This document shows positions 3,712 to 52,300 of a stretch of DNA of 64,000 nt, piece after piece. The stretch spans positions 9,910,350 through 9,974,349 of the forward strand of contig NC_084773.1 in the NCBI RefSeq assembly GCF_028858725.1, given 5' to 3'. Made by a program: the position numbers and the translations under genes. The stretch is from Colius striatus (taxonomy: Eukaryota > Chordata > Aves > Coliiformes > Coliidae). How positions within the stretch are numbered: the stretch's first letter is position 1; each line of letters opens with the position of its first letter. The notes under the pieces are model-generated. The model saw nothing but the letters and a program-made list of their open reading frames with translations. It was not told where the DNA came from and ran no database searches.

Positions 3712-6700
3712 AATCTGAGTGCGGGGCTGCCCTCGGGACAGATCTGCCACGACGAGCAGCGTCTGGAGGTGATCTTTGCAGATCTGGCCAGGCACAAGGA
3801 CGATGCTCAGCAGCGCAGCTGGGCACTCTACGAGGATGAGAATGTCATCTGCTGCTACCTGGAGGAGCTGCTTCGCATCCTGGTGAGGAAATTTCTCTCT
3901 TTACAGGCAGGGCAGAGCAGATGGCCCCGATGAAGTTCCTTTTGTCTGACCTCCTTTGCCCCTGTTTGCCGTCGGATCTGCTGTTTCAGAGGGTGTTTCT
4001 TGTGCATCCTTTACTGTTGATGTGAAGCCCTGCCCTCCTATGTGGGGTCTGCAGTGCTCCTGAGCTGTCTTCCACTCCAGCTTATAAAGCTGCTCTGAAA
4101 AGAGTTGTGGAGCCATTCTTCATGGTAACTGTGGTATTTTCTATCACAGGAGAATATAAACTCTCACCTCCAAAAAAACCCAACCTTCCCACAGAAAACC
4201 CAGAAGCCTGCTCTGAGGGTTCATTGCACTCCTAGACTTATTTAAAATGTCTTCCATTTAAAACATCCTCTGAGGCTGGAAAGTACCTGCAGCAGGGTGA
4301 GGGCCGTTAAATGCTGAGAGAATTCCTTGTTGCCTTGAAAGTGAGCTTTAAAGCTATTTTAATGAGAAAGTATAAAGCATTTCACCACATCTGCATCCAG
4401 GAGAGATGCACCCCATAGTGAGAGCAGCAGACAGTACCGTCCCAGTGCTGTTCCTGGCATGTGCAAGCCTGTCTGTGTACAGTGAGTGTGGTGATACAGG
4501 AGCTGCTGCTCAGTGCAGTGACAGGCTCTGTGTTACAGGTGCTGCTGTTTGGCTCGGGCACCTGCTTTGTATTCCTCTCCAGTTCTAACATAATAAGCAG
4601 AACACATATTTTTCTGTGTAATAAATGCCAGTGTTTTTGTCCCCCAGCACACAGCCTGTGCCACCTCACTGTGGGCCTGCAGGGCAAGGCTGAAGGGGAT
4701 TTTGTGCAACCATTTTCTCATCATTTAGGAGTGGGAGATGTATGACACTGAGCAGGATGGAATTGGTGCTGGAGCTGCCCTGTGTAACTGCACAATGCCC
4801 TCACCAAGGTGCTGCTCAGGTCATGGATTTGTTAGATGTTTTCAGCCCAAGACATGCTGTATGGCAGAGATGTTTCTCAAGAATTCCTTTGGATGCAGAA
4901 TCTGCAGGGTGGCAGTTCTTGAGCTGGCTTTGTGCTCTGACTTCAGTTTCTTTGAGATGGTTGGGCTGGGGCTACTGACACCTGAAAGCAGCTGGCCTCC
5001 CTTGAGGTCCCTGCAGCAGACACCTTGCTGCTATGATGTGCCACTGGGCTGACCTGTTCATTCCTACTTCCAGACAGATGCAGACCCAGAAGTTTGCAAG
5101 AAAATGTGCAAGAAGAATGAGTTTGAATCCGTCTTGTCCCTCGTGGCATATTATCAGATGGTAAGGTGGCAGAATGCATCCAGTTTATCTTCCTGAGATT
5201 TCCCTGAAGATGCCAAAGAGCAGGGTTGCTGTGATGAATATATGTAAGATGTTCCCCCCGGATAGGGCAGTTGTAGCACCTCCCTTTGGATTGGAGTGCT
5301 GGCTAATGTGCTAATGTCAATGCTATGCATGCAAGTTGTGTGGAAGAGCAGAGGATGCTACGGCCTTGGAAGCGTAGCAAGCACTGTGAAGGGTAAAGCT
5401 TGCTGCTTTTATGAGCTCCATTGAGGGACAGAATTGGCATCACTAATACCTAGAGGAAGGATTTCCAAGGTTGCCTTGGGAAGGCTGACAGGCTGTGGCT
5501 GCTCCTCTTCTAATTGATGCACTCTGGTGCATTAGTAAATAGCTTTGCTTGGAAAGTAGGTTGTGAGTAGAAGCCTTGGGAGTGGGGAAGGAAATCAGTA
5601 TTCAGAGGAAGAAATGGAAGTCCTGCCTTCAGTGCCTATGCCCTGTTGCTTTGCTCCTCTTCTTCCTGAAATATATCATTGTAGGACTCAGTGGGGGTTG
5701 GAAGTTTGTCCCCATCTTGTCCCTAAGTCTCGAGATGCTCCAAGCCTTGTGGCATTTAGCTTTCACCTGGCACTTCTGTGTCAGAACCGAGAGCTCAGCA
5801 TCAGGGGCTGTAGCAGATCTGAGAGCAGTGGGAAGGCAAGCTGTGCATAATGGAGCCTGCTGGCTTTCACTGCCTGCTATTCTCTGACTAGGATTTCAAG
5901 GAAGTCTGACCAGGTGGAGAGCAGTTGGGTCTCCTGTCCTGGCTGTTGTCATGCCAGTGTCAGGGCTTGACTCGCTTCTGTTCTTTAAACACTGGAGTTG
6001 TTGGCTGGAGTATGAGGGTTACCCCAGCACCAGAGCTGCTGTGTGGGAGCTGCAGGTTGAGCATTGTCTTCGCTGGAATCCCTGCATGTCCCAAAACCTT
6101 CTGGATATGCCTTCTGCTCCCATCACAAACCCAGGGTGGAGGAGCTGCCCTGATCCTGCTGGTTAATGTGCTAAAGGGGGTTTGCAAATACTATATTGTC
6201 AGGAAACTTCCCTCGGAGCAGCTGAAAGATGTCACTGTGCTCAGAGAACCCTGGCTGCCCAGCAGATTCAGTCTGGAGATGGGTATAGGTTGTTGATTCA
6301 TGTCATATTTAGTGGATGAAGAGGGGCCTTTCAGATCTGAGCTCTGGCTGCCATATGCCCTCTGACTGCACATGCCAACAACCTCCAGCCAGTCCAGTTC
6401 TGAATGTTATCATAAAGTGACTCCTGTGCTGCTGTTAAAATGTGATGGAGCTTCTGGGTTCAATGTCACCCTGGGAGGGTGTTTGGCTTCCCAACAGTGG
6501 GAACTTCTAGCCAGTTATGTCCCTGCCTTAGAGTGAGATCTTGTCTGGGACATCACTTCATCTAAAAATTGGCTTTGCAGGAACACAGGGTGCCGTTACG
6601 GCTGCTGCTGCTCAAGTGCTTTGGAGCCATGTGCAACCTGGATGCTGCTGTCATCTCAACACTTGTAAACTCTGTGCTGCCGATGGAGCTGGCCCGGGAC

Positions 6701-31300: not shown

Positions 31301-34300
31301 TTGCTGGCATGGTGCTGGGTCCCAAGGGGAGGGAGTTTGCTTCCAAGGAAGGGAAAGATTAAAGAGAATTAAACAAACCGGAGATGGGCCGAGGGAGGAA
31401 GAGATGCAAAGCAGATGGTGGGAAGGGGGGAAGCAGGGAAACCAGCACAAAAGCCTTGGAGACCCTGGAGGAGAAAGGAGGAAGCGGGAGGAGGGGAGCA
31501 CAGGGAAAGGCAGCGTGGGGGAGGCAGACAGGGCGCAGCAGGGAAGGAAAACACCCCAGGCCTTGGCATCAGCTCCTGTGTTTGCCTAGCCTCCTGCTGG
31601 GACTTCCTTCTGCCCAGATCTCACCAGCATCTTTGTTCCTGAGAGCTCAATTTGCTGCCGAGATCCAAGACAAGGAGAGAACCCGAGTTATCTCACTGGA
31701 GGGAGCTCCTCCTCCAGCCTGGGTGTCACCCTGCGAGCCCCTGGGGCTGCGACTCCAAGCTTCCTTAGCCAAGGCCTTTCTGGGGCCTCACTGTGGTGTG
31801 GGGCTCTGCCCCGGGGTGGGAGGGAGAAGAGTCTCCAACAAGCAGCCAAAGACCTGCGGCATCATGTCCCCGTTGCCTCCCACAGACGGCATCCACAGCG
31901 TGACAGCCCAGTGCGTCCTGCGGGTGATCATCATCACGGAGGACATGTTGGCCAACAGCATCACGGTGCGGCTGGAGAACATGTGGCAGGAGCGCTTCCT
32001 CTCCCCGCTGCTGGCCGCCTTCCTGGAAGGGGTGGCCACCGTGCTGGCGACGCCCAAGGAGGACATCTTCATCTTCAACATCCAGAATGACACGGACGTG
32101 GGCGGCGCGGTGCTGAACGTCAGCTTCTCGGCGCTGTCGCCGCGCGGCGGGCGGTACCTGAGCTCGGAGGAGCTGCAGGAGCAGCTGTACATGAAGCGCA
32201 TGGCGCTGACCGGGGCCTCCATGCTGGACGTGCTGCCCTTCGACGACAACGTCTGCCTGCGGGAGCCCTGCCAGAACTACATGAAGTGCATCTCCGTCCT
32301 CAAGTTCGACAGCTCGGCCCCCTTCATCGCCTCGCCCTCCACCCTGTTCCGGCCCATCCACCCCATCACGGGGCTGCGCTGCCGCTGCCCGCAGGGCTTC
32401 ACCGGGGACTACTGCGAGACGGAGATCAACCTGTGCTACTCCAACCCGTGCCGCAACGGCGGGCTGTGCCGGCGCCGGGAGGGGGGCTACACCTGCGTGT
32501 GCCGGCAGCACTTCAGCGGTGAGTGCCAGGCTGCAGGGTGAGGGTCCCAGCGCTGCTGTCCCCGTGGCAAGGTGCCCGTCCCGGCGGGGTGGCGGGAGGC
32601 AGAGCCCCTCTGCCCGCAGGGGTCCGGCCCTGCTCCCGGCTCCCCCTGTTTCCATGCGCTGCATGTGCAAGGCTGGGGTCGCCACAGAAGTCTGTCCTGC
32701 AGGGAGGTGGTGTGGAGCGCTCTGGGGGATGCTGGCCACCACCCTTGTTTTTCACAGAGCAGGAGGACCAAGCTGGGCCTCAGCCAGGCTCATCAGCTCT
32801 GCCTTGTGCCAGTGGGGTGATGGGCTCTGGGACAACTGGAGATGCTGGTTTCAGCTGCTCTGGCAGAGGTGTGGAGTCCACAGTAGCCCCATGTTGCCCA
32901 CCCAAAACAAGGGGAGGCTGGGCCTAGCTGCCTCACCAGGCAGGATCTGATCCAGTACCAGCCATGGGAGCAATCCCTGGGCGGGTCAGTGTCTTATTTG
33001 GGGGACTGTTGCCAGTGTCTTGTTGCCACAAGTTCCCTGCAGGCTGTGCAGACCTATACCCAGCCACTGGCAACCTGCAGGTGGGGGAGGGTGGCCTGTG
33101 GCTACTGGGGAGGGAGCCTTTGCCTTGCCCTCCCTGCCGAGAGAGGGAGTTTGGCAGCAGATGGCTGCCTTGGAGCTGATCTCCTGTAGTGGCTCCTGGT
33201 GAGATAAGTAGTCAGTGGTAATTAACCTCTGGCATTTGAAGCATGAACAGCCATTAGTGGAAGGGTTAATGAGCTCGTTTCCCTGTCACTTCATGCTGTC
33301 TCCTGATGTCTTCCTCGTGTGCCACTAAGTGATGGGAGCAGGGCCCAGGGTGTAGGGTTGCAGAGTGATTCCCTGTGTGCTGTGGGGACAGCATGGAAGA
33401 AGGGCTGGTCTTCTCTGCACTGGGCATCCCCCTCACCCATGCCAGCAAGGTGCATGGGTATTTGGTGTCCAGTGATGGTGCCCAAGCAGGCACTCTCAGC
33501 TTCCCCAGGACTTCCCTGCCTTGTCCTTGACATTCTCTCCATCCTTAGGACTGTGCAGCCCACTTGCAGCCAGTCCACTCCTGTCCTGTTCCTGTGCCAT
33601 CCTGGGTCCAAACCTGCCTTTTACTATGGGATACACTTCGGTGCCACCTGGGTTGTCACTTCCTTTGCCTACCCAGAGCTGCCCCACAAACTCCTGCCTC
33701 AAGCATGGGCTTGAGCTCTGCTTTCCCTGGATGAGGAGCGGGTGGCTGGCAGCTGCACACGTGGCCCTCAGCCAGGCTGTGCCTGAGCCTCTCCTCTGGC
33801 TCCCCTCAGCCAGGCCATGCCTGAGCCTCTCCTCTGGCTCCCCTCAGCCAGGCCATGCCCGAGCCTCTCCTCTGGCTCCCCACAGGTGAGAACTGCGAGG
33901 TGGACCGGCGCTCGGGACGCTGCGTGCCCGGCATCTGCCGCAACGGCGGCACCTGCACCAACGGCGCCGATGGCGGCTTCCGCTGCCAGTGCCCGGCCGG
34001 CGGCTTCGAGCCACCCTTCTGCGAGGTGTCCACACGCTCCTTCCCACCGCGCTCCTTCGTCATGTTCCGGGGCCTGCGCCAGCGCTTCCACCTCACCCTC
34101 ACCCTCTCGTGAGTCCTCTCCTTCCTGCGCTGGACGCCAGCACCCGCCGGTCTCCTGGCCCTGCTCTGGCGGCTCTAATGTTCCCTGAGCCGGGCCAGGG
34201 ACTCGCTGATGCTCCCAGACCCCTGCGTTACCGTCTTTGCCTTGCCACGGGGAACCTTTAGCTACAGGGTTCTGAATATGCCCTGCCACGTCTCCCATGG

Positions 34301-37300: not shown

Positions 37301-40300
37301 GCCCCTGCCTCCTCTGCCCTCTGCCCCAGGAGAGTGGGAGGACCCTGCCCCTCCATGTTGGCTCCAGCCCAAGCAAAGGGTGGTTGTGGGGAGAGGCCTT
37401 TAGCAGGGCTGTGTGTCCCACCCCATGCTCAGAGGGCATTGGCAGAGCTTTTGCTCACTGCTGCCATTGCTGGTTCCATCCCTGCAGCTGGCTGGGGGCT
37501 TGCTGTCCTTGGTGGTGAGCAGAGGCTCTGGGCGCAGCACCAGCCTCCTCCTGGACCAGCTGCAGCTCAGCGATGGGAGGTGGCACGACCTCCAGCTGGA
37601 GCTGCGGGACGTGCACAGCGGGCGAGACTCGCGCTATGTCATCACCCTCACCGTGGACTTTGGGCTCTACCAGGTAGGTGCTGCCTGAGATCCCAGCACC
37701 AGGACAGAAACTGGGGGGGATGATTGGCATACACAGGCCAGGCTGAGCCGCTGCACCCTTGGGGAGCGCTGGGGCAGGGCTGCTGCCAGCTGCCCCACGT
37801 TACTCCCTTTCCTTCTGCAGGACACGGTGGTTGTCGGAAATGAGCTGCATGGGCTGAAGGTGAAACACCTCCACGTGGGGGGAGTCCTGGGCTCTGGTGA
37901 GGTGCAGAACGGGCTGAGGGGCTGCATTCAGGTAAGTATTGCTCTTAAGATCTCACTTTCCAGCAGGTCTGTTACATGGTTGGGTGGAAACACAGGCCTG
38001 GCAGCTGTTGTCAATGTCCATTCTGTCAGTGACACTCCCTCTGAGCATTCAAGGCTCTGAGGTGCTGTGGGGCAGCCAGAAATCAATCCTAAACTAATGA
38101 ATCCTGGGGCAGCAGGGGTGATGAGATGGCCACCCTGGGGGTCTGGAAGGCAGGAGGACTGGGAGTGTCGTGGGTCTGTTGTAGATTCACTGTGGGTTTG
38201 TGGCCTGTGTTACAGGGGGTGCGCCTGGGTGACAGTGTCACCGGGACTGTGCTGCCCAAGCCCAGCCATGCCCTGCGTGTGGAGGCTGGCTGCAGCGTGC
38301 CCAGCCCCTGCCACTCCAACCCCTGCCCGGCCAACAGCATCTGCAAGGATGAGTGGCAGAGTTACTCCTGTGTGTGCCAGCCAGGTAGGTTCTGCAGTGC
38401 CCTGCCACTGCTTTCCTCTCCATGCCTGTCTGTCAGCTCCTCTCCCCCTGTGACTGCTTTCCTGTCTATCCCTTGGGCAAGTCACATCCCTAGAGGGCAG
38501 AATCCTTCCTGAGCCCCCTGAATCCTCTCCTCTGTCCACATCTCAGGGTACTATGGAGGGGACTGCGTGGATGTGTGTCACCTCAACCCCTGCAAGAACA
38601 AGTCAGTGTGTCGCCGCAAGCCAGGTTCACCCCTGGGCTACGTCTGCGAGTGTGGAGGCAACTTTTTTGGGCAGTACTGTGAGCACAGGTGAGATGTGGG
38701 GCACAGGGCATGGCCACTGCCTCTGTGCCTGGCTCTACTGCCTTCTTCTCTTGGCTACTTGACCAGGGACTTCTCAGTGCCACCCGGCTCCTTGGAGCTG
38801 CTGAGCAGCTGGGCTGGTGGAAGGAGAAGGCCCAGGGTATTTGTTGTAACAGCAAAGGTATTTCTCTCCCTAGGATGGACCAGCAATGTCCGAAGGGCTG
38901 GTGGGGGAACCCCACCTGCGGGCCCTGTAACTGTGATGTGAACAAGGGCTTTGACCCTGACTGCAATAAAACCAACGGGCAGTGCCACTGCAAGGTGAGA
39001 GGCAGCTGTGCCCATGAGGACGTAGCCTATGGCTTGCCTGGAGCCCTGGATGCTGTTCCTTCTCTCCTCCAAAGGCCTGGCATCTGCCCAGGCCCTGCTT
39101 TGTATGCCCACTTCTGGGCTGGATCCCAGCTCGGCATCCTGCGCAGCCCTCCTGGCCCAGCACAGTGATGATGGGGGCAGGGAGTGCTCACACATCCCTT
39201 CCCTGGCCCTCCCTGCCCTGGCTGCTGCCCCAGCAGCTGCCTGATGGCTGCCCTTATCTCCCCCAGGACTTCCACTATCGCCCCAAAGGCAGCGACACGT
39301 GCCTGCCCTGCGACTGCTACCCCGTGGGCTCCACCTCGCGCTCCTGTGACAGGGAGTCGGGCCGGTGCCAGTGCCGGCCGGGGGTCATCGGCCGCCAGTG
39401 CAACAGCTGCGACAGCCCCTTCGCCGAGGTGACGCCGAGCGGCTGCGAGGGTGAGTGTGGGCATGGCAGGAGCTGGTGTGAGGGGAATGTGGGCACGGAG
39501 GGAGCTGGTGCCCTGGGCTGAGCAGCCACAGACACCCTCTCTGAGCTGCCCCTCCACCTGCGTGTCTCCACAGTGCTCTATGATGGCTGCCCAAAAAGCC
39601 TGAAGGCGGGTGTGTGGTGGCCCCAGACCAAGTTTGGCTTCTCGGCCGTGGTGCTGTGTCCCAAAGGCTCCCTGGGTGAGTGGGGATGCAATGGGGAGAG
39701 GGCAGCCTGGCTGTCCTGTCAGGGCTGTGGCAGCCCTTGCAACATCATAGTGTTCTTGTGCTGTCTCGGTCATGTTTAGCTGGGCTTGAGATCTGAGAGA
39801 AGGCAACTGGAGGAGAAATGCCATAGCCTTTGGGGAGAGCAGAGGGAGCTGGCCACAGGGCTGGAGAACAGGCTTGGGGGGTCTAGACCCATCACCCAGC
39901 CCCAGGGCTGTGCTGTTCCCTCAGCCTCAGTGCCCGCCTTCTCCCTGCTGCTACTTGGTTTCAGCTGGCTTAGGCTGGGGCCAGGCCTGGCCTGGCAGCT
40001 CATTGCCCGCAGCACCTTGCCTCAGGGTGCACTGCGAGGGGAGCAGGGCACAGTGAGCTGGTAGGTGAGTGTCTCTGGGAGGAGTCAGCATCCTGAGCTG
40101 GAGGAGACCATCCTTCAAAGGCATGGGCAGGGGCTGGGACTGTAGGGCAGCGCCAGCCTCAGAGGACAATACAAACCCTGTCCTTCTCCAGCCGTTCGCC
40201 CCAGGAGGAGGCAGGTTTGGCTCCTAACTGTTGTCGCTTCTCTCCCCGGTTCTCTCGCCCTCCGTGCTCAGGCTTGAGGGGTTCAGGTAAGGTTGTTCCC

Positions 40301-43300
40301 ATCTCTTTCCCTCTGTGCTGTAAGGGCTGTGCCATGCAGCTTTCCCTCCCTGCTCCCTGCCTGGCACGCTGCACACCCCTGCGCTTTCCCTGCTGCTTCT
40401 GGAGCTGCCGAGTGTGTTCCCACTGCTTTGCCTGGCCTCACTGCTGCCCCACACTCTGCCCTCTCCCAGCACACTGCCCAGCCCGAGCCTGCTGCACTGC
40501 CTCTGGATAGACCCTGGCTCCTGGGCTGGCACCTGCCTGCTTGGGCTGGGAGGGGATGGGAGCTGGTGATCAGCAATGGAGGGATGGCCGTGGGGTGGAG
40601 GAAGCGAGGAGTTGTTTGGGTGGGGAGCAGGAGATGGGGGCAGGAACTGATGGGCACACACAGCACGAGGTCCTGTTCCCTCTGCCCAGCTGGCATGGGA
40701 GGCAGAGGGGCCCAGGGACCAGATCCTGCCCAGATCTGCAGCTTGACTGATCTCTGATGATCTCTGTTCTTTCCCAGGGGAAGGGCTGCAGTGTGGAGGT
40801 TCTTTGTTCTCCCTGCTACAAAGGCACTGGTTCCCCAGCCTTTGGTGGCTGGAGAGGACAGCTTGAAGCTGGAGATGGACAGGGGAGCATGCTATTCACT
40901 GGGGCTCTTCCAAGCAGCACTTGGAGTCTGCCCCAGGCTCCCTCTCCCCACTCTGGCCGTGCCCCTGCCCTCTCCCACCCCTGGGCACCTGGAGCTGTCC
41001 CCAGGAGGGCCTGTCCCACAGTCCTACTGAGTACATAGGGGTCACCCAAGTTCCTCTTGCTCAAAGTGTGCATGGTGACAGTTCCAGCCCAGGACACTGC
41101 TCTGCGTGTGGCTTTAGCAGAGCTTCTGCAGGTGCTCAACACCTGATCCCACTCAGTGGTGGTATCTCCATGGCTGGGCCTCAGCCAGGGATTGGGCTCT
41201 GGCACTGGGGACTCAGCCCACACTGCTGGTGGGAGATCTCCATCCCACTCAACTGCAGGGGCTCGTCGCTGCGGAGGTGTTGTGTCCCAGGGGGACATTG
41301 CCCTGTGGAGAGAGGCAGGGCCTCAGCAGGCATTGCAGGCAGTCAGCCAGGAGGTGCCTACAGCTGCATGGGCCTCAGTAGTCTGGGATCAGGTGTGCCT
41401 GGCAGGTCAGGGTGACACATCCCCACCAGAGCCAGAGGGATTTCCAGCCTGAGCCCTGCCAAGTCACTTACTCCTCTTCGCAATTCTGTGTGATAGCACC
41501 TGGTGTGATGCAGCCCAGGTGCACGCAGGAACCCAGCCCAGGGAGGGAGGGGACATGATGGCAGCAGCTTGCTGAGATGATGCAGACTGGAGGGGTGGAA
41601 TGGTCCTGGGGCCATTACAGGCCTTCACATCCCTTGCCAGTGATGCTCTTTGGGGTTAGCTGGTGCAGAGAGTCCCTTCTGGAGGTGCAGCAGGGCAGCC
41701 CTGCATCCTGTGCTGAATTTCAGATGGGCTTTTCCTCCCGGATTTAGGTGCAGCCATCAGACACTGTGATGAGGAGAAGGGCTGGCTGGAGCCAGATCTC
41801 TTCAACTGCACGTCGCCTGCCTTCAAGGAGCTCTCTGTGCTGGTAATCCCCGCTCAGCTCTGCAGCCCTGGCAGGGCAGGAGCCATACAAACAAGGGCTC
41901 ATAGACATGTTTCAAAGACCTCAGCTGTCCGTGGGCACCTGTAGCAGGAGAGGGCCTTGCCACAGTGCTCACCACTTCTGCTCATCTCCTACCCCCAAAC
42001 CCATCCTGTGGGAGCATTGATCTGAGCTGAAGTTCACTTCAGTGTAATGTTTGGAGCGTCCCCATCAGAAACACCCTATGTCCTGCCCCAGTATTTAAGA
42101 AGTAAAAAAGTATCCTGAGCAGGGCTGAACTGCTTGATGCTGGCAGCATGTTTGCCCTTGGGACCTCTGTAGCCCTCAGACAGTGCCAAATCCCTTTGAA
42201 AAATGGAGGCAAGTTTATTGAACACTTGCATCCCACCAAAGCTGAACTGTAGCTGAAGCCAGGAGAGTTTCCAGGGAAGTCTGGCTAGATGCCTGCCCTG
42301 TCCTTTCATCTCCTTAGCCTCTATCACATAGGGTACTGGGTTAGCTGGGCCTGGCCCAGTACAGCCCTGTGTGCTGCTGGAGGCTGTCATCTAGAGATGC
42401 TTCCTGTTCTAGTGACCACCACTCTGAGTGTCCCTGGCTTATGCCATGGTTTCCAAAACCGTTCTGGGTTCAGTGGGGCCTGCAGCATCCCAATTTCCAA
42501 GTGAGCAACCTGCTTAGTTGTTTAATCCCCTTCTTCCTCCCTGCTGGCAGCTGGAGGGCTTGGAGAGGAACGAGACTGAGCTCAACACAATTGAAGCCAA
42601 GAAGCTGGCCCACCGGCTGCGGGCTGTGACAGACCACATGGACCACTACTTTGGCAACGACGTGCACATCACCTTCCGCCTGCTGTCCCACCTCATGGCC
42701 TTCGAGAGCCAGCAGCGTGGCTTTGGCCTCACAGCCACACAGGATGCTCACTTCAATGAGGTCAGTCCTTCACCACAGCAGGGTGGCTTCTGATGCTGCT
42801 TCTCTTCATCATCCACCACCAAGCCCGGGTCTCTATTGAGATTGACGCTGTTGTGAGACCATGTCAGGAGCAGTGGGCTCCCCAGTGCTACACAAGCATT
42901 AACCCACTGTGGAAGCCGCCTTATATGGTCAGGGCTGGAGCACAGGGTGGATGAGGAGAGGCAGAGAGCTGGATTTGTTCAGCCTGGGGAAGGGATGGCA
43001 GAGGGAGGTCTCATTGCTGTCTGCAGGCCGCTAATGGCAGGGATGCAGGGAGGATGTCTGCAGAATGCTGGCTGATGAGTAGTCAGGGTGAGGGCCTGTT
43101 GTAGGAGAACATACTCTTCTGTGAGCCCTTGTGCAGCAAGCTGGGCAGAGAGCACAGTGCCGCAGCCTGGGGTGGTTGGGCCGGGGCCCACAGGCTCCGC
43201 TTCCCTCATCCCCTGCCCCGACATCTCCCATGCAGAACCTGCTGCGCGCAGGCAGCTCCGTGCTGGCCCCCGAGAACCGGGCGCACTGGGCCATGCTGCC

Positions 43301-46300: not shown

Positions 46301-49300
46301 GCCATCATCACCGGTACCAGCTGCTCGTCCTGCAGCCCTGCCACAGCCCCGGCTCTCAGCAGCCTCCCCGGCCCCTGCTGATGCCCAGCTGATTTGCCCG
46401 ATGGGGAGAGCTGGGGGTGGGCTTGCCACGGGCAGCAGTGCTGTGCTGGTCAGCTGCAGACCACGAATCAAGCGCTGTTGTCGCGCGTCCTGGGGAGCGG
46501 TGATTCCTCAGCACGTCTCCCCACGGCTTGTTTGGAAGGAAACAGAGGCCCTGATGCTGGGGTTCACAGCCCTGGCTCTTTCCCTGTGGCGGGGAAGCCT
46601 GTGGGCAGGGCAAGGAGCCAGGAGAGAACCCTTTTGCGGCCTTCAGTGCTGAGATGAGATCGATAGGGCTACAACAAGTCCAAGACTGCTGGGTCTGGGC
46701 CTGACCTCCGCCTTCCTCTTGCAGGGCTGGCTGTTGGCCTGGATCCTGAGGGCTACGGGAACCCCGACTTCTGCTGGATTTCCATTCATGATAAGCTGGT
46801 CTGGAGCTTTGCAGGCCCCATTACTGTCGTCATTGTGGTAAAACCCTGTCCTGTTTCACCCACAGCCCCCTCCTGCCTCCCTTCTCCACACCGCAGGCAC
46901 TCTCCCCTTCCTCGGCTGCCCACTGCCTGCCCCGATCTCTGTACTCCTTTCCTCAGTTAGTGGCCCTCCCTCTGTCCCTCCTCGCTGCAGCTGAACCTGG
47001 GGGAGGCCATGGCTTGGGCATGAAGGGGAAAGGAGGGGACGGTCACGTGGGCCTGGCAGACCTGGTATCTGCCCATGCTCTGCGCTGGGGATGTCAGTTA
47101 GAGCCCTTGGCACAGCTTCTAATCAGTGCCAACACTTTCAGATGAATGGGGTCATGTTCCTGCTTGTGGCCAAGATGTCCTGTTCCCCAGGCCAAAAGGA
47201 AAACAAGAAGAAATCAGTTCTGTGAGTATTAGTGGCCAAACTCCCAGCAGAGCTCCTGTGGCTCATGAGTTTTAGCATTTTCAGTGACCATCCTCCCTCT
47301 TCCGCCGTTGCAGAGTGCCCCTCTGGGCATCAGTGTCAGCCTCAAAGCCACTCTCCTCTCCCACACCTGCATTAACCCTTCCTAAACTTTGTCCTTTCCT
47401 CTTGTTCCTACGTTGCCATCCCCACACTGTCCTGCCAGCCTGTCCTCCTCCACCACCTGCCCTCACAGCCACCTCTCCTGTCTGCTTGGATTCAGCACTG
47501 CCCTTGTCAACTCTCAGCACCTGCTTCTTCTCACGTGCTCCTGCGAGACCTTTCCCCACTCGCTCCAGGGCCAGCCCTGGAGCTCAGCTCAGCTCTCTGT
47601 GGCTCCAGATGACCTGTGTCATTTGGGCCCGTGTGTGTGATCCAGAAGGGATGTCCTGGGAGTCGGGGAGCCGAAGCACCATGCCGCAGCGTGGCACAGT
47701 GGGAAGGGCTGGGCTTTCCCCTCTGGATCTCTGTCTGTGAGCACTAGGCTGTAGATTAACAATCCGCACTAACCTCTGGGTCTGTGCCTGTCTGTCTGTC
47801 TCTCTCTCTCCAGCATGACGTTACGGAGCTCCTTTGTTCTGCTTCTAGTTATTAGCACTACCTGGCTCTTTGGCCTCTTGGCTGTCAACAACAGTGTCCT
47901 GGCTTTCCACTACCTCTACACTGTCCTCTGCAGCCTCCAGGTAACTGCCTGGCCTCTGCCAGGGAAGGGCATGGGTCAGCCCAGGAGAGCATGTGTTCTA
48001 GTGGTCCCTGTGGCCACCTGTGGAGAGTGACTGGCCTGTGATGAGCCCACGGCATCCCATGGGGCTCCTCATCCCTTCTGTTGTCACCACTGCCAGTCCT
48101 GGCTCCTCTGCCCATGGTGAGCTGTGGCATTGATCAGGAGGTGTCTGCAAGGCAGGTGGTTAAGAGGTGACAACCAAGGGGCAGTGAGGACTGTCTTTGG
48201 AGGGAAGGGGCCTCCATGCTCTCAGAGAGTGGCCTGCAACAGAGGTGTTGGACACCCCAAACATGACCCACAGTGGCAGCACCCTGCAAATGTCCTGCCA
48301 CCATCATGGCTGGTGTTGCTGCAGGGGACTCTGCCAGCCTCTCCTTGGCTTCTGCTAGCCAGGAGGACAACCTGCCCTTTCCTTTCTCACCCATGGCCAC
48401 CGATTGGCATCAGGGCTCTTAGGTGCATCCCAGTCCTGGTGGCTGCCAGGGCCAGCACATTGGGCTGTGGAGGAGCCCGGGCCTGTCCCAGCACTGGCAG
48501 GCGAGCAGGTTGACTGGCAGCGAGGGGCTGTCTCTCCTCATGGCATCTCTCCTTGCAGGGCCTGGCTGCGCTGCTCCTGTTCTGCGTGCTGAACGAGGAG
48601 GTGCGGGAGGCCTGGAAGCTGGCCTGCCTCGGCAAGAAGGGGCAGGGCGAGGAGCCCACACGGAGCACGCAGGTGGGCAGGAGCAGCTCAGGGGACGGGG
48701 GACGGGAGCTGACAGGGACATCTCTGCCTCCCCAGGGGGATGGCAGGTGTGGGTGGGAAGGCCATCCACCTCCTTACCGGGGACTGTGCCCTCTCCCCCC
48801 GCTCCCAGGGCCCCAACGCTTACAACAACACGGCGCTGTTCGAGGAGAGTGGGCTCATCCGCATCACCCTGGGCGCCTCCACCATCTCGTCAGTGAGCAG
48901 TGTGCGCTCTGCCCGCACGCACTCCAGCCAGCGGCCTTACCTCAGGTAGGGCTGCTGCGGGTACCAGCGCGGGGCTGCGGGTGCTGGGGCACGGCTGGTG
49001 GTGCTGCCATGGGGCTGCGGGTGCTAGGGCAGGGCTGTGGGTGCCGGGGCAGGGCTGGCAGTGCTGCTGTGGGGCTGCGGGTGCTGGGGCACGGCTGGTG
49101 GTGCTGCCGTGGGGCTGCGGGTGCTGGGGCAGGGCTGGTGGTGCTGCCGTGGGGCTGTGGGTGCTGGGGCAGGGCTGGTGGTGCTGCCGTGGGGCTGCGG
49201 GTGCTGGGGCAGGGCTGGCAGTGCTGCTGTGGGGCTGTGGGTGCTAGGGCAGGGCTGTGGGTGCTAGGGCAGGGCTGTGGGTGCCGGGGCACGGCTGGTG

Positions 49301-52300
49301 GTGCTGCCTTGGGGCTGCGGGTGCTGGGGCACGGCTGGTGGTGCTGCCATGGGGCTGCGGGTGCTGGGGCAGGGCTGTGGGTGCTGGGGCACGGCTGGCG
49401 GTGCTGCCGTGGGGCTGTGGGTGCTGGGGCAGGGCTGGTGGTGCTGCCGTGGGGCTGTGGGTGCCGGGGCACGACTGGTGGTGCTGCCTTGGGGCTGCGG
49501 GTGCTGGGGCACGGCTGGTGGTGTTGCCATGGGGCTGCGGGTGCTGGGGCAGGGCTGTGGGTGCTGGGGCACGGCTGGCGGTGCTGCCGTGGGGCTGTGG
49601 GTGCTGGGGCAGGGCTGGTGGTGCTGCCGTGGGGCTGTGGGTGCCGGGGCACGACTGGTGGTGCTGCCTTGGGGCTGCGGGTGCTGGGGCACGGCTGGTG
49701 GTGCTGCTGTGGGGCTGCGGGTGCTGGGGCACGGCTGGTGGTGCTGCCTTGGGGCTGCGGGTGCTGGGGCACGGCTGGTGGTGCTGCCATGGGGCTGTGG
49801 GTGCTGGGGCAGGGCTGGCAGTGCTGCTGTGGGGCTGTGGGTGCCAGGGCAGGGCTGTGGGTGCCGGGGCAGGGCTGGCAGTGCTGCTGTGGGTGCCGGG
49901 GCAGGGTTGATGGTGCTACCATGGGGCTTCAGGTGCCAGGGCAGGGCTGGCAGCTACTTCTGCTATGACTGCTGGGGCCTCCTGTCTTTCAGAGACAACA
50001 TGGCTGCACGTCAGGGCTCGGCCCTGGACCATAGTCTGTTGGCTCATGCCGGTCCCACGGACATTGATGTGGCCATGTTCCACCGCGATGCTGGAGCAGG
50101 TAAAGCTGAGCCCTGTGCCTGGGTTTGGGACTGGCCACACACATCTCAACTCCTGGCTTAAGGAAATTGTTCCCAAGTGTGGGCTCTGGCTGTACAAGTA
50201 CATTGGTCCACGCCACGTTCAGCTGTGACTTCCAAACATGCTGTGTGAATAGGAGAGAGAGGCGGCAACCATGTTACTTAGCACAGTCTCCTCTTGGACA
50301 GATGGTGAAGAGCGTAGCCAGGCTCCAAGGAGCTAGAAAGGAAGGAGGCAGGAGGGGCATAGGCTGTTGCAGCATTCCTTGGTGCTCTGGGCTCCCCAGG
50401 ACAGCACGGGCATTTGACTTGCCGGAGTGTGACCAGCAGGGCCACCGTCACAGCTGAGGCTGGGGGAGATGGGTGAGCAGAGGCTGGGGGAGCTGGGTTG
50501 GTTCAGCCTGGAGGAGGAGGAAAGGAGATCTTATGGGTGTTTGCAACTGCCTTACGGAGAGGTGCAGCACAACGGAGCCAGACTCCTCTCGTGGGCACAG
50601 TGATAGGGCCAAAGGAGCAGGCACAAGCTGTGGCCAAGGGAAGGGCAGGCAGGGGTAAGGCAGCCTGTTGTCAACCCTGGAGTGGTTCTGCCTTCCTGGC
50701 CCTGTCACCAGGAGCCTCTCCCACCTTCATTCCAAACGTTTCTCCAACACACACCGTGTCCCTGCAGACCAGGACTCGGACTCGGACAGTGACCTGTCTC
50801 TGGATGAGGAGCGCAGCCTCTCCATCCCCTCCTCAGAGAGTGAGGAGAACGTCCGCCTGCGGGGCCGCTTCCAGCGCCAGTTCAAGCGGGCGGCGCACAG
50901 CGAGCGCCTCCTCACCAACCCCACCAACACCACTCCCAAAGGCAAGTCCCGGGGCCCTGGCAGGGCAAAGGCTGAGCTCAGGTCCCTGAGGGCCAGGTTG
51001 TGTCTTGGCATGGCTTTGATAGCTGTTCACAGAAATACTCTCTCTCTTCCCCGGCGCCTGTTCCGCTGTGTCCTTTGCCAGACGTGGATGGCAATGACCT
51101 GATGTCGTACTGGCCAGCTCTGGGTGAGTGCGAGGTGCACCCCTGCTCCCTGCAGAAGTGGGGCTCTGAGCGGAAGCTGGGATTCGACATCAACAAGGAT
51201 GCAGCCAACAACAATCAGCCAGACCTGGCCTTGACCAGCGGGGATGAGAACTCCCTCACCCAGACCCAACGGCAAAGAAAAGGTAACGGCTCAGAGCAAG
51301 GGTGGCCTCACCTGTCTCAGGGTGACATGGCCCTGAAGCCTCAGCGTCAGATCCAGCTTGTGTCCTTGGGGAAGTATGGTTTACCTCTCCTAGCTTGTGC
51401 ACCCTTTTCCCCGTTATGCAAAGATTTGACTCCTGTTTCTGTTGGGTGCAGGGATTTTGAAGAACCGCCTGCAGTACCCGCCGCCTCTCCAAGGTCTGCC
51501 AGCCGTCGGCAGGATGACCAACGAGCTGACGTGGTACAAAACCTCCACGCTGGGTCACAGGGCTGTCCCCGCTGCCTCCTACGGCAGGATCTACTCCGGG
51601 GCGGGCAGCTTGTCGCAGCCAGCCAGCCGGTACTCCTCACGGGAACAGCTGGACATGCTGATGAGGAGACAGATGTCCCGGGAGCAGCTGAGCAGACACA
51701 ACTCAGGAGAGTGCTTAGAAGCTGTGCCCAGCAGGCACGGCTCCAGGGAGGAGCTGGACACTATCCCCAGCAGGCACGGGTCTGCTGAACATCTGGAGAG
51801 CATCCCGAGCAGACACGGCTCTAGGGAGAACTTGGATCTGCTCACTGCCAGGCCCAGTCAGAAAGATCATGGGAACACGCTGCCCCGGAGGCAGGGCTCC
51901 AGAGATCACCTTGACTCTTTACCCTGCAGATTTGGGTCAAGAGAGCAGCTAGACTGTGGACCAGTAAGAGAGGTCTCGAGAGAGTGGCTAAACACATTGC
52001 CAAGTAGGCAAGTGTCCAGAGACCGAATAGGCACGTTGCCAAGTCGAGATACTTCTCGAGAACAGTTGGATTTGCTTTCTAGAAGACAGCCTTCAAGGGA
52101 CCAGCTGGCATCGGCTAGGCAAACTTCAAGGGAGCAGCTGGACTTTCTGTCCAGAAGATCTAATTCCAGAGAGCCTCTGGACACAGTGTCTAGCAGGCAG
52201 CCCTCGCAGGACAACCTGGGGAGCCTCTCCAGGAGGCAGCTGTCTAGGGAAGGCCTGGAGCCGCTGTCAAGGAGACAGCCCTCCAGAGAGAACCTAGAGG

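Follow-up and report, generated by a model that had tools for sequence, protein, structure and literature searches.

A candidate 15-nt neural microexon in the HRM domain of CELSR3

Fly eMIC exons are marked by a UGC near the 3′ splice site, a long AG exclusion zone, a UCUC tract and a CUAAY branch point. They lie in short introns and have an extremely weak 3′ splice site, a weak donor, a strong upstream donor and a strong downstream branch point (described in excerpts of PMC8797185). All of these marks are also seen in mammals, save those that concern the exon's own donor and the downstream branch point, and PTBP1 is the main repressor there (same excerpts of PMC8797185). In Ptk2, autophosphorylation rises on inclusion of the microexon (passage of PMC13281805).

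Short cassettes in receptor ectodomains have been described for the PAC1 receptor (ADCYAP1R1), where variants that skip exon 5 (7 residues), exons 5–6 (21 residues) or exons 4–6 (57 residues) occur, with expression in brain (excerpt of PMC3659299). The 21-residue segment is located in the β3–β4 loop (excerpt of PMC5511175), which is constrained by the Cys77–Cys113 bridge (excerpt of PMC3098264). Latrophilin-3 (ADGRL3) is a synaptic adhesion GPCR that is alternatively spliced with functional consequence (excerpts of PMC10830413 and PMC13197933); it is a different gene from the one discussed here, and the likeness is of that general kind.

The window analysed here is a 64-kb stretch that forms part of contig C17 in a genome of 1.21 Gb and 191 contigs. 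Pfam matches in the window give the gene order on the + strand as a SPIN90-type gene, a receptor with cadherin, HRM and secretin-family 7TM domains, and an SLC26-type transporter. The matches for the receptor and its flanking genes fall at 16.2, 22.1, 45.8 and 58.9–59.9 kb, and the cadherin repeats of the receptor comprise eight matched stretches and a CELSR2-like ninth. Chimeric transcripts of human CELSR3 with NCKIPSD and with SLC26A6 are tabulated in the part of PMC11039983 available. On the strength of the gene order, with NCKIPSD (SPIN90) and SLC26-type neighbours, and of these human transcripts we assign the receptor gene as CELSR3. An earlier note on this DNA had placed a 15-nt microexon in a phase 1 intron within the HRM domain of CELSR3; gene, domain and intron phase agree with the Pfam matches and exon boundaries. 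The relevant features (positions in the window) are as follows.

39574..39675, + strand: upstream CELSR3 exon, first half of HRM; ends in phase 1 at TGG/gtgagt
39676..41747, + strand: host intron of 2,072 nt, phase 1, between the two HRM exons
40215..40269, + strand: AG-free stretch of 55 nt before the acceptor AG, with a UCUC-rich pyrimidine tract
40222..40228, + strand: TCCTAAC, matching the branch-point consensus; its A at 40227 is the branch A (−45)
40265..40267, + strand: TGC motif of SRRM4/eMIC type at −7
40272..40286, + strand: candidate 15-nt microexon GCTTGAGGGGTTCAG, which adds LRGSG; flanked by acceptor and donor motifs
40287..40292, + strand: donor (CAG/gtaagg); of 12 scored CELSR3 donors, one is stronger
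41748..41842, + strand: downstream CELSR3 exon, second half of HRM; acceptor atttag/GTGCAG

The branch point TCCTAAC, the long pyrimidine tract, the 15-mer and the donor gtaagg are all present, as the earlier note had stated. The TGC does not directly abut the acceptor CAG as had been claimed; one T lies between them (tgcTcag). Within 70 nt upstream of the candidate exon TCCTAAC was the sole match to YNCTRAY, TCTC occurs five times in the upstream 100 nt, and GCTTGAGGGGTTCAG has a single occurrence in the window. The exon would be inserted in phase 1, in frame and free of stops, as five residues before AIRHC (GSL-GLRGSG-AAIRHC), just as had been stated. Since 92% of the 15-mers in the host intron are stop-free, the open frame alone is weak evidence. 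An 8-nt exon starting from the internal AG was ruled out by its acceptor score (−3.4) and by its length, which would disrupt the reading frame.

Under generic, approximate log-odds splice matrices the acceptor of the candidate scores 5.5 and its donor 7.4. The comparison set consists of 13 CELSR3 exons (13 acceptors and 12 donors scored) that were chosen partly via the same scores. Within this set five of the 13 acceptors are stronger than the candidate's, and the donor of the upstream exon (4.8) is average, in the mid-range of the 12. The AG exclusion zones of the 13 real acceptors span 22–58 nt, and only two are longer than the 55 nt of the candidate.

The short distance between acceptor and donor recalls a recursive-splicing site. 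However, the two sites are 15 nt apart and do not abut, and the host intron is short. Known recursive splice sites are found in very long introns. We rejected recursive splicing on account of the spacing and the short intron, and regard its probability as negligible. It is very improbable that the element is a decoy exon, one that is not itself included but controls intron retention by engaging the spliceosome at its splice sites: strong paired sites within an intron could act in this way, but nothing in the present data points to regulated retention.

We asked how often such a pair of sites arises by chance. No other site of 3–27 nt (divisible by 3) has both scores as high on either strand of the 64-kb window, and none reached both scores in 424,000 strand-bases of null sequence. 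The null comprises eighteen 10-kb stretches of this genome, read on both strands, and the antisense strand of the window; eight of the 18 are on the window's own contig and six of those eight adjoin the window. Its GC content is 0.443, versus about 0.57–0.69 in the CELSR3 region (20 to 56 kb). Because the null stretches are poorer in GC, shuffles of CELSR3 were used as well. On average, shuffles of the host intron (n = 200) contained 0.000 sites when both scores had to be reached and 0.005 when their sum was used, and 20 shuffles of 25.3–52.6 kb gave no site with both candidate scores. A rule that dispenses with the matrices (exact [AC]AGGT[AG]AG donor, YAG acceptor, at least 15 of 18 pyrimidines) matches only the candidate on the + strand of the window and nothing in the same null; in dinucleotide shuffles of 25.3–52.6 kb (27 kb) it found at least one site in 4 of 200. 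At looser thresholds (acceptor ≥ 2, donor ≥ 4) the null yielded 16 sites, none of which (0/16) has a branch-point match. A chance origin of the paired splice sites is thus unlikely, and the window scan, the null and the shuffles all disfavour chance occurrence as the leading reading.

These tests bear directly on the possibility of a pseudo-exon, a chance or normally silenced cryptic exon that is absent from mature mRNA. CELSR3 is among the candidates listed in a human study of TDP-43-dependent cryptic exons (excerpt of PMC12267460, which gives the gene and no position in it), so cryptic exons may occur in this gene. Yet a pseudo-exon would have to reach a strength seen 0 times in the 424-kb null and in only 4 of 200 shuffles of the 27-kb region, and branch point, exclusion zone, UGC, frame and a length divisible by 3 would all have to coincide with it. 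We consider it quite improbable. Taking these observations together, we judge that the candidate is probably a real microexon.

As a positive control, the same scan was applied to PTK2.

G000:C6:93376550-93379060 (stretch L048), minus strand: 21-nt element of PTK2, located by the microexon scan

The element ranked first of the three sites listed for its intron and reads KSYGIDEA in the intron phase; we take it to be FAK box 7, a known neuronal microexon of PTK2. It is the one known microexon that the scan recovered, if this identification is right. Like the CELSR3 candidate, box 7 (21 nt) is the scan's best candidate of its intron and has a TGC within 14 nt of the exon. Its scores are weaker (acceptor/donor 3.1/2.8 versus 5.5/7.4), its exclusion zone is shorter (28 nt) and it has no branch-point match; moreover, PTK2 is an intracellular kinase, whereas the CELSR3 insert would belong to a receptor ectodomain. 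The scores of the PTK2 element are reached by 21 null sites. Its low scores indicate that a real microexon need not match the CELSR3 site, and that score alone is no proof. The same scan gave nothing convincing in a second PTK2 stretch (L049). With an approximate ITSN1 query, the best match was elsewhere, probably in ITSN2, and the known 15-nt ITSN1 microexon was absent from the ∼ 4.5 kb examined upstream.

The genome has two further CELSR genes, on contigs C1 and C27. We take this pair as CELSR1, whose HRM exon is close to the solved CELSR1, and, by exclusion, CELSR2. Both have a homologous intron at the same codon position and in the same phase, and in neither did the scan find an element comparable to the CELSR3 candidate, a comparison between paralogues and not between orthologues. 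The CELSR1 intron holds one weak site.

5367-5387 of stretch L039: weak 21-nt in-frame site CCAAGAATCCCAGTCTGGAAG in the CELSR1 intron; acceptor 3.8, donor 2.9

This site has a branch-point match at −36, but its AG exclusion zone spans just 22 nt, the 14 nt next to it contain no UGC, and sites like it occur at about 0.03 per kb in null sequence. Considered as a paralogous microexon of CELSR1, it is probably due to chance. Since the CELSR1 and CELSR2 introns carry no comparable element, the candidate is thus particular to CELSR3 in this genome, either gained there or lost in CELSR1 and CELSR2; we count this absence as a point against the neural-microexon reading.

The Pfam HRM profile (PF02793, cut-off 26.2 bits) is passed both ways, with 45.3 bits for the skipped form and 49.7 bits for the form that includes the insert. 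When nine random 15-mers from the host intron were inserted instead, with no exon-like ends (final G) imposed, the scores were 41.2–46.6 bits, and three of the nine beat the skipped form. The gain is thus modest, and it indicates no more than that the profile tolerates the insert and fits it mildly. In the HRM alignment the five residues fall between the cysteines C29 and C46, and the HRM sequences of CELSR1 (8vy2) and latrophilin-1 (4dlq) are without them. We infer that the insert would lie in the β3–β4 loop.

It is this loop that invites comparison with PAC1. In both, a small cassette, alternatively spliced in PAC1 and putatively so in CELSR3, belongs to an ectodomain of the hormone-receptor type, and the CELSR3 insert lies between cysteines that we take as equivalent. 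PAC1 differs in being a class B peptide receptor, with a loop that contacts extracellular loop 3, whereas in CELSR3 a GAIN domain lies between HRM and the 7TM region. The profile match of the CELSR3 HRM to PAC1 is weak (E 0.18–0.19); this match and the cysteine pattern suggest that the two loops are equivalent. Nothing suggests a shared ancestry of the PAC1 and CELSR3 exons. For ADGRB2, packing of HormR against GAIN has been predicted, and Celsr3 is cited as resistant to autoproteolysis (both in excerpts of PMC13062082). On this basis, an effect of the insert on HRM–GAIN packing is a reasonable idea.

Turning to regulation, the candidate carries four of the eMIC marks, namely the UGC, the long AG exclusion zone, the UCUC tract and the CUAAY branch point, and its 15 nt lie within the size range of SRRM3/4 microexons (3–27 nt) and are divisible by 3. 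It resembles SRRM3/4 (eMIC) neural microexons in all of these respects and also as an in-frame insert in a neuronal protein. It differs in that its 3′ splice site is not weak by our matrices and in that the CELSR3 candidate is known from sequence alone. By these crude matrices the candidate has neither an especially weak 3′ splice site nor a notably strong upstream donor, both of which are published, though not obligatory, tendencies of eMIC exons. The genome has two matches to SRRM_C (PF15230), both above the curated cut-off; we take SRRM_C to be the C-terminus of SRRM3/4 with the eMIC domain. The suggestion of SRRM4-type signals therefore holds for the UGC, the branch point, the tract and the exclusion zone, and is joined by the two SRRM_C matches, but does not extend to the acceptor, which is not weak.

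Two further properties of the surrounding sequence were noted.

40287..40486, + strand: TGC/YGCY cluster with 16 TGC in 200 nt, directly downstream of the candidate exon

When the host intron was shuffled 200 times, no 200-nt segment (sampled every 20 nt) held as many TGC. Across the window a comparable TGC density is found in 17 of 1,276 segments in all; outside this cluster they lie around 34.9 kb and within the minisatellite (48.9–49.7 kb). The cluster may act as an MBNL/CELF-type enhancer. The RNA around the candidate is more weakly folded than every one of 200 shuffles (z +2.33), which fits accessible splice sites.

Accessible, strong sites would also be expected of a genuine microexon that is constitutive or broadly used, where the ordinary machinery includes the exon in all cells that express CELSR3. 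The donor at 7.4 beats 11 of 12 real CELSR3 donors and the acceptor exceeds 8 of 13, whereas eMIC exons are described as having weak 3′ splice sites, and the weakly folded surroundings point the same way. Because the acceptor is not weak and the upstream donor is not notably strong, we have weighed the neural SRRM reading down and this rival up. Against it stands the presence of a UGC, a long exclusion zone free of AG, a tract rich in UCUC and a CUAAY branch point, all of eMIC type, and the HRM domains of CELSR1 and latrophilin-1, which are without the five residues, indicate that the domain does not need them. Overall we consider constitutive or broad inclusion rather unlikely. Our preferred reading is a neural SRRM3/4-type cassette microexon of CELSR3 that is included mainly in neurons, to which we assign a probability of roughly two in three.

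The sequence signals, the reading frame, the site within the domain and the SRRM3/4-type domains in the genome are shown; inclusion, neural restriction, the regulators and the effect on the receptor are all inferred in the scheme that we propose for such a cassette. In non-neuronal cells PTBP1 would occupy the UCUC-rich tract and the exon, too short for exon definition, would be skipped, so that exons 39574–39675 and 41748–41842 are joined directly. In neurons SRRM3/SRRM4 would use the UGC, the strong branch point and the strong donor via the eMIC domain, and the exon would be defined. The included form would then carry LRGSG between two HRM cysteines, in the putative β3–β4 loop, where it might tune HRM–GAIN packing or a contact with a partner. 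We speculate further, and only tentatively, that a CELSR3-specific neural microexon switches the length of this loop, and that an uncleaved adhesion GPCR thereby sets its conformation or choice of partner in neurons by splicing of the very loop that PAC1 employs; we think this extended version doubtful.

We found no paper that names a CELSR3 microexon among the matches listed in a search of literature text. In the one paper that contains both CELSR3 and ‘microexon’, the two words stand in passages unconnected with each other, and the ‘splice’ phrase match for CELSR3 that was examined refers to a zebrafish morpholino. The insert-spanning peptides LRGSGAA and GALGLRG had no match in the literature text searched, and ‘CELSR’ is absent from the main text of PMC8797185, PMC12626424, PMC7935315, PMC7821500 and PMC13281805. 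The 15-nt exon may already be annotated in splice databases or tables.

If the preferred reading is correct, a five-residue, probably neuron-specific change beside the GAIN domain would provide a compact handle on tuning of the receptor, and constructs without the exon may miss a neuronal form of CELSR3. CELSR3 functions in axon guidance and synapse formation. The HRM β3–β4 loop may also be a site that splicing has exploited on separate occasions, once in PAC1 and once in an adhesion GPCR.

Elsewhere in CELSR3, at 33884–33891 of the window, an exon seems to start with GTGAGA directly after its acceptor (cccacag/gtgaga), and these abutting acceptor (6.4) and donor (6.9) motifs have the layout of a recursive-splicing site. 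A tandem array at 33765–33885 (3.2 copies of a 38-nt unit) ends exactly at this acceptor. A minisatellite occupies 49032–49864 in a late CELSR3 intron, with ∼ 21 copies of a G-rich 40-nt unit; it can alternatively be described by a period of 180 over 49192–49746.
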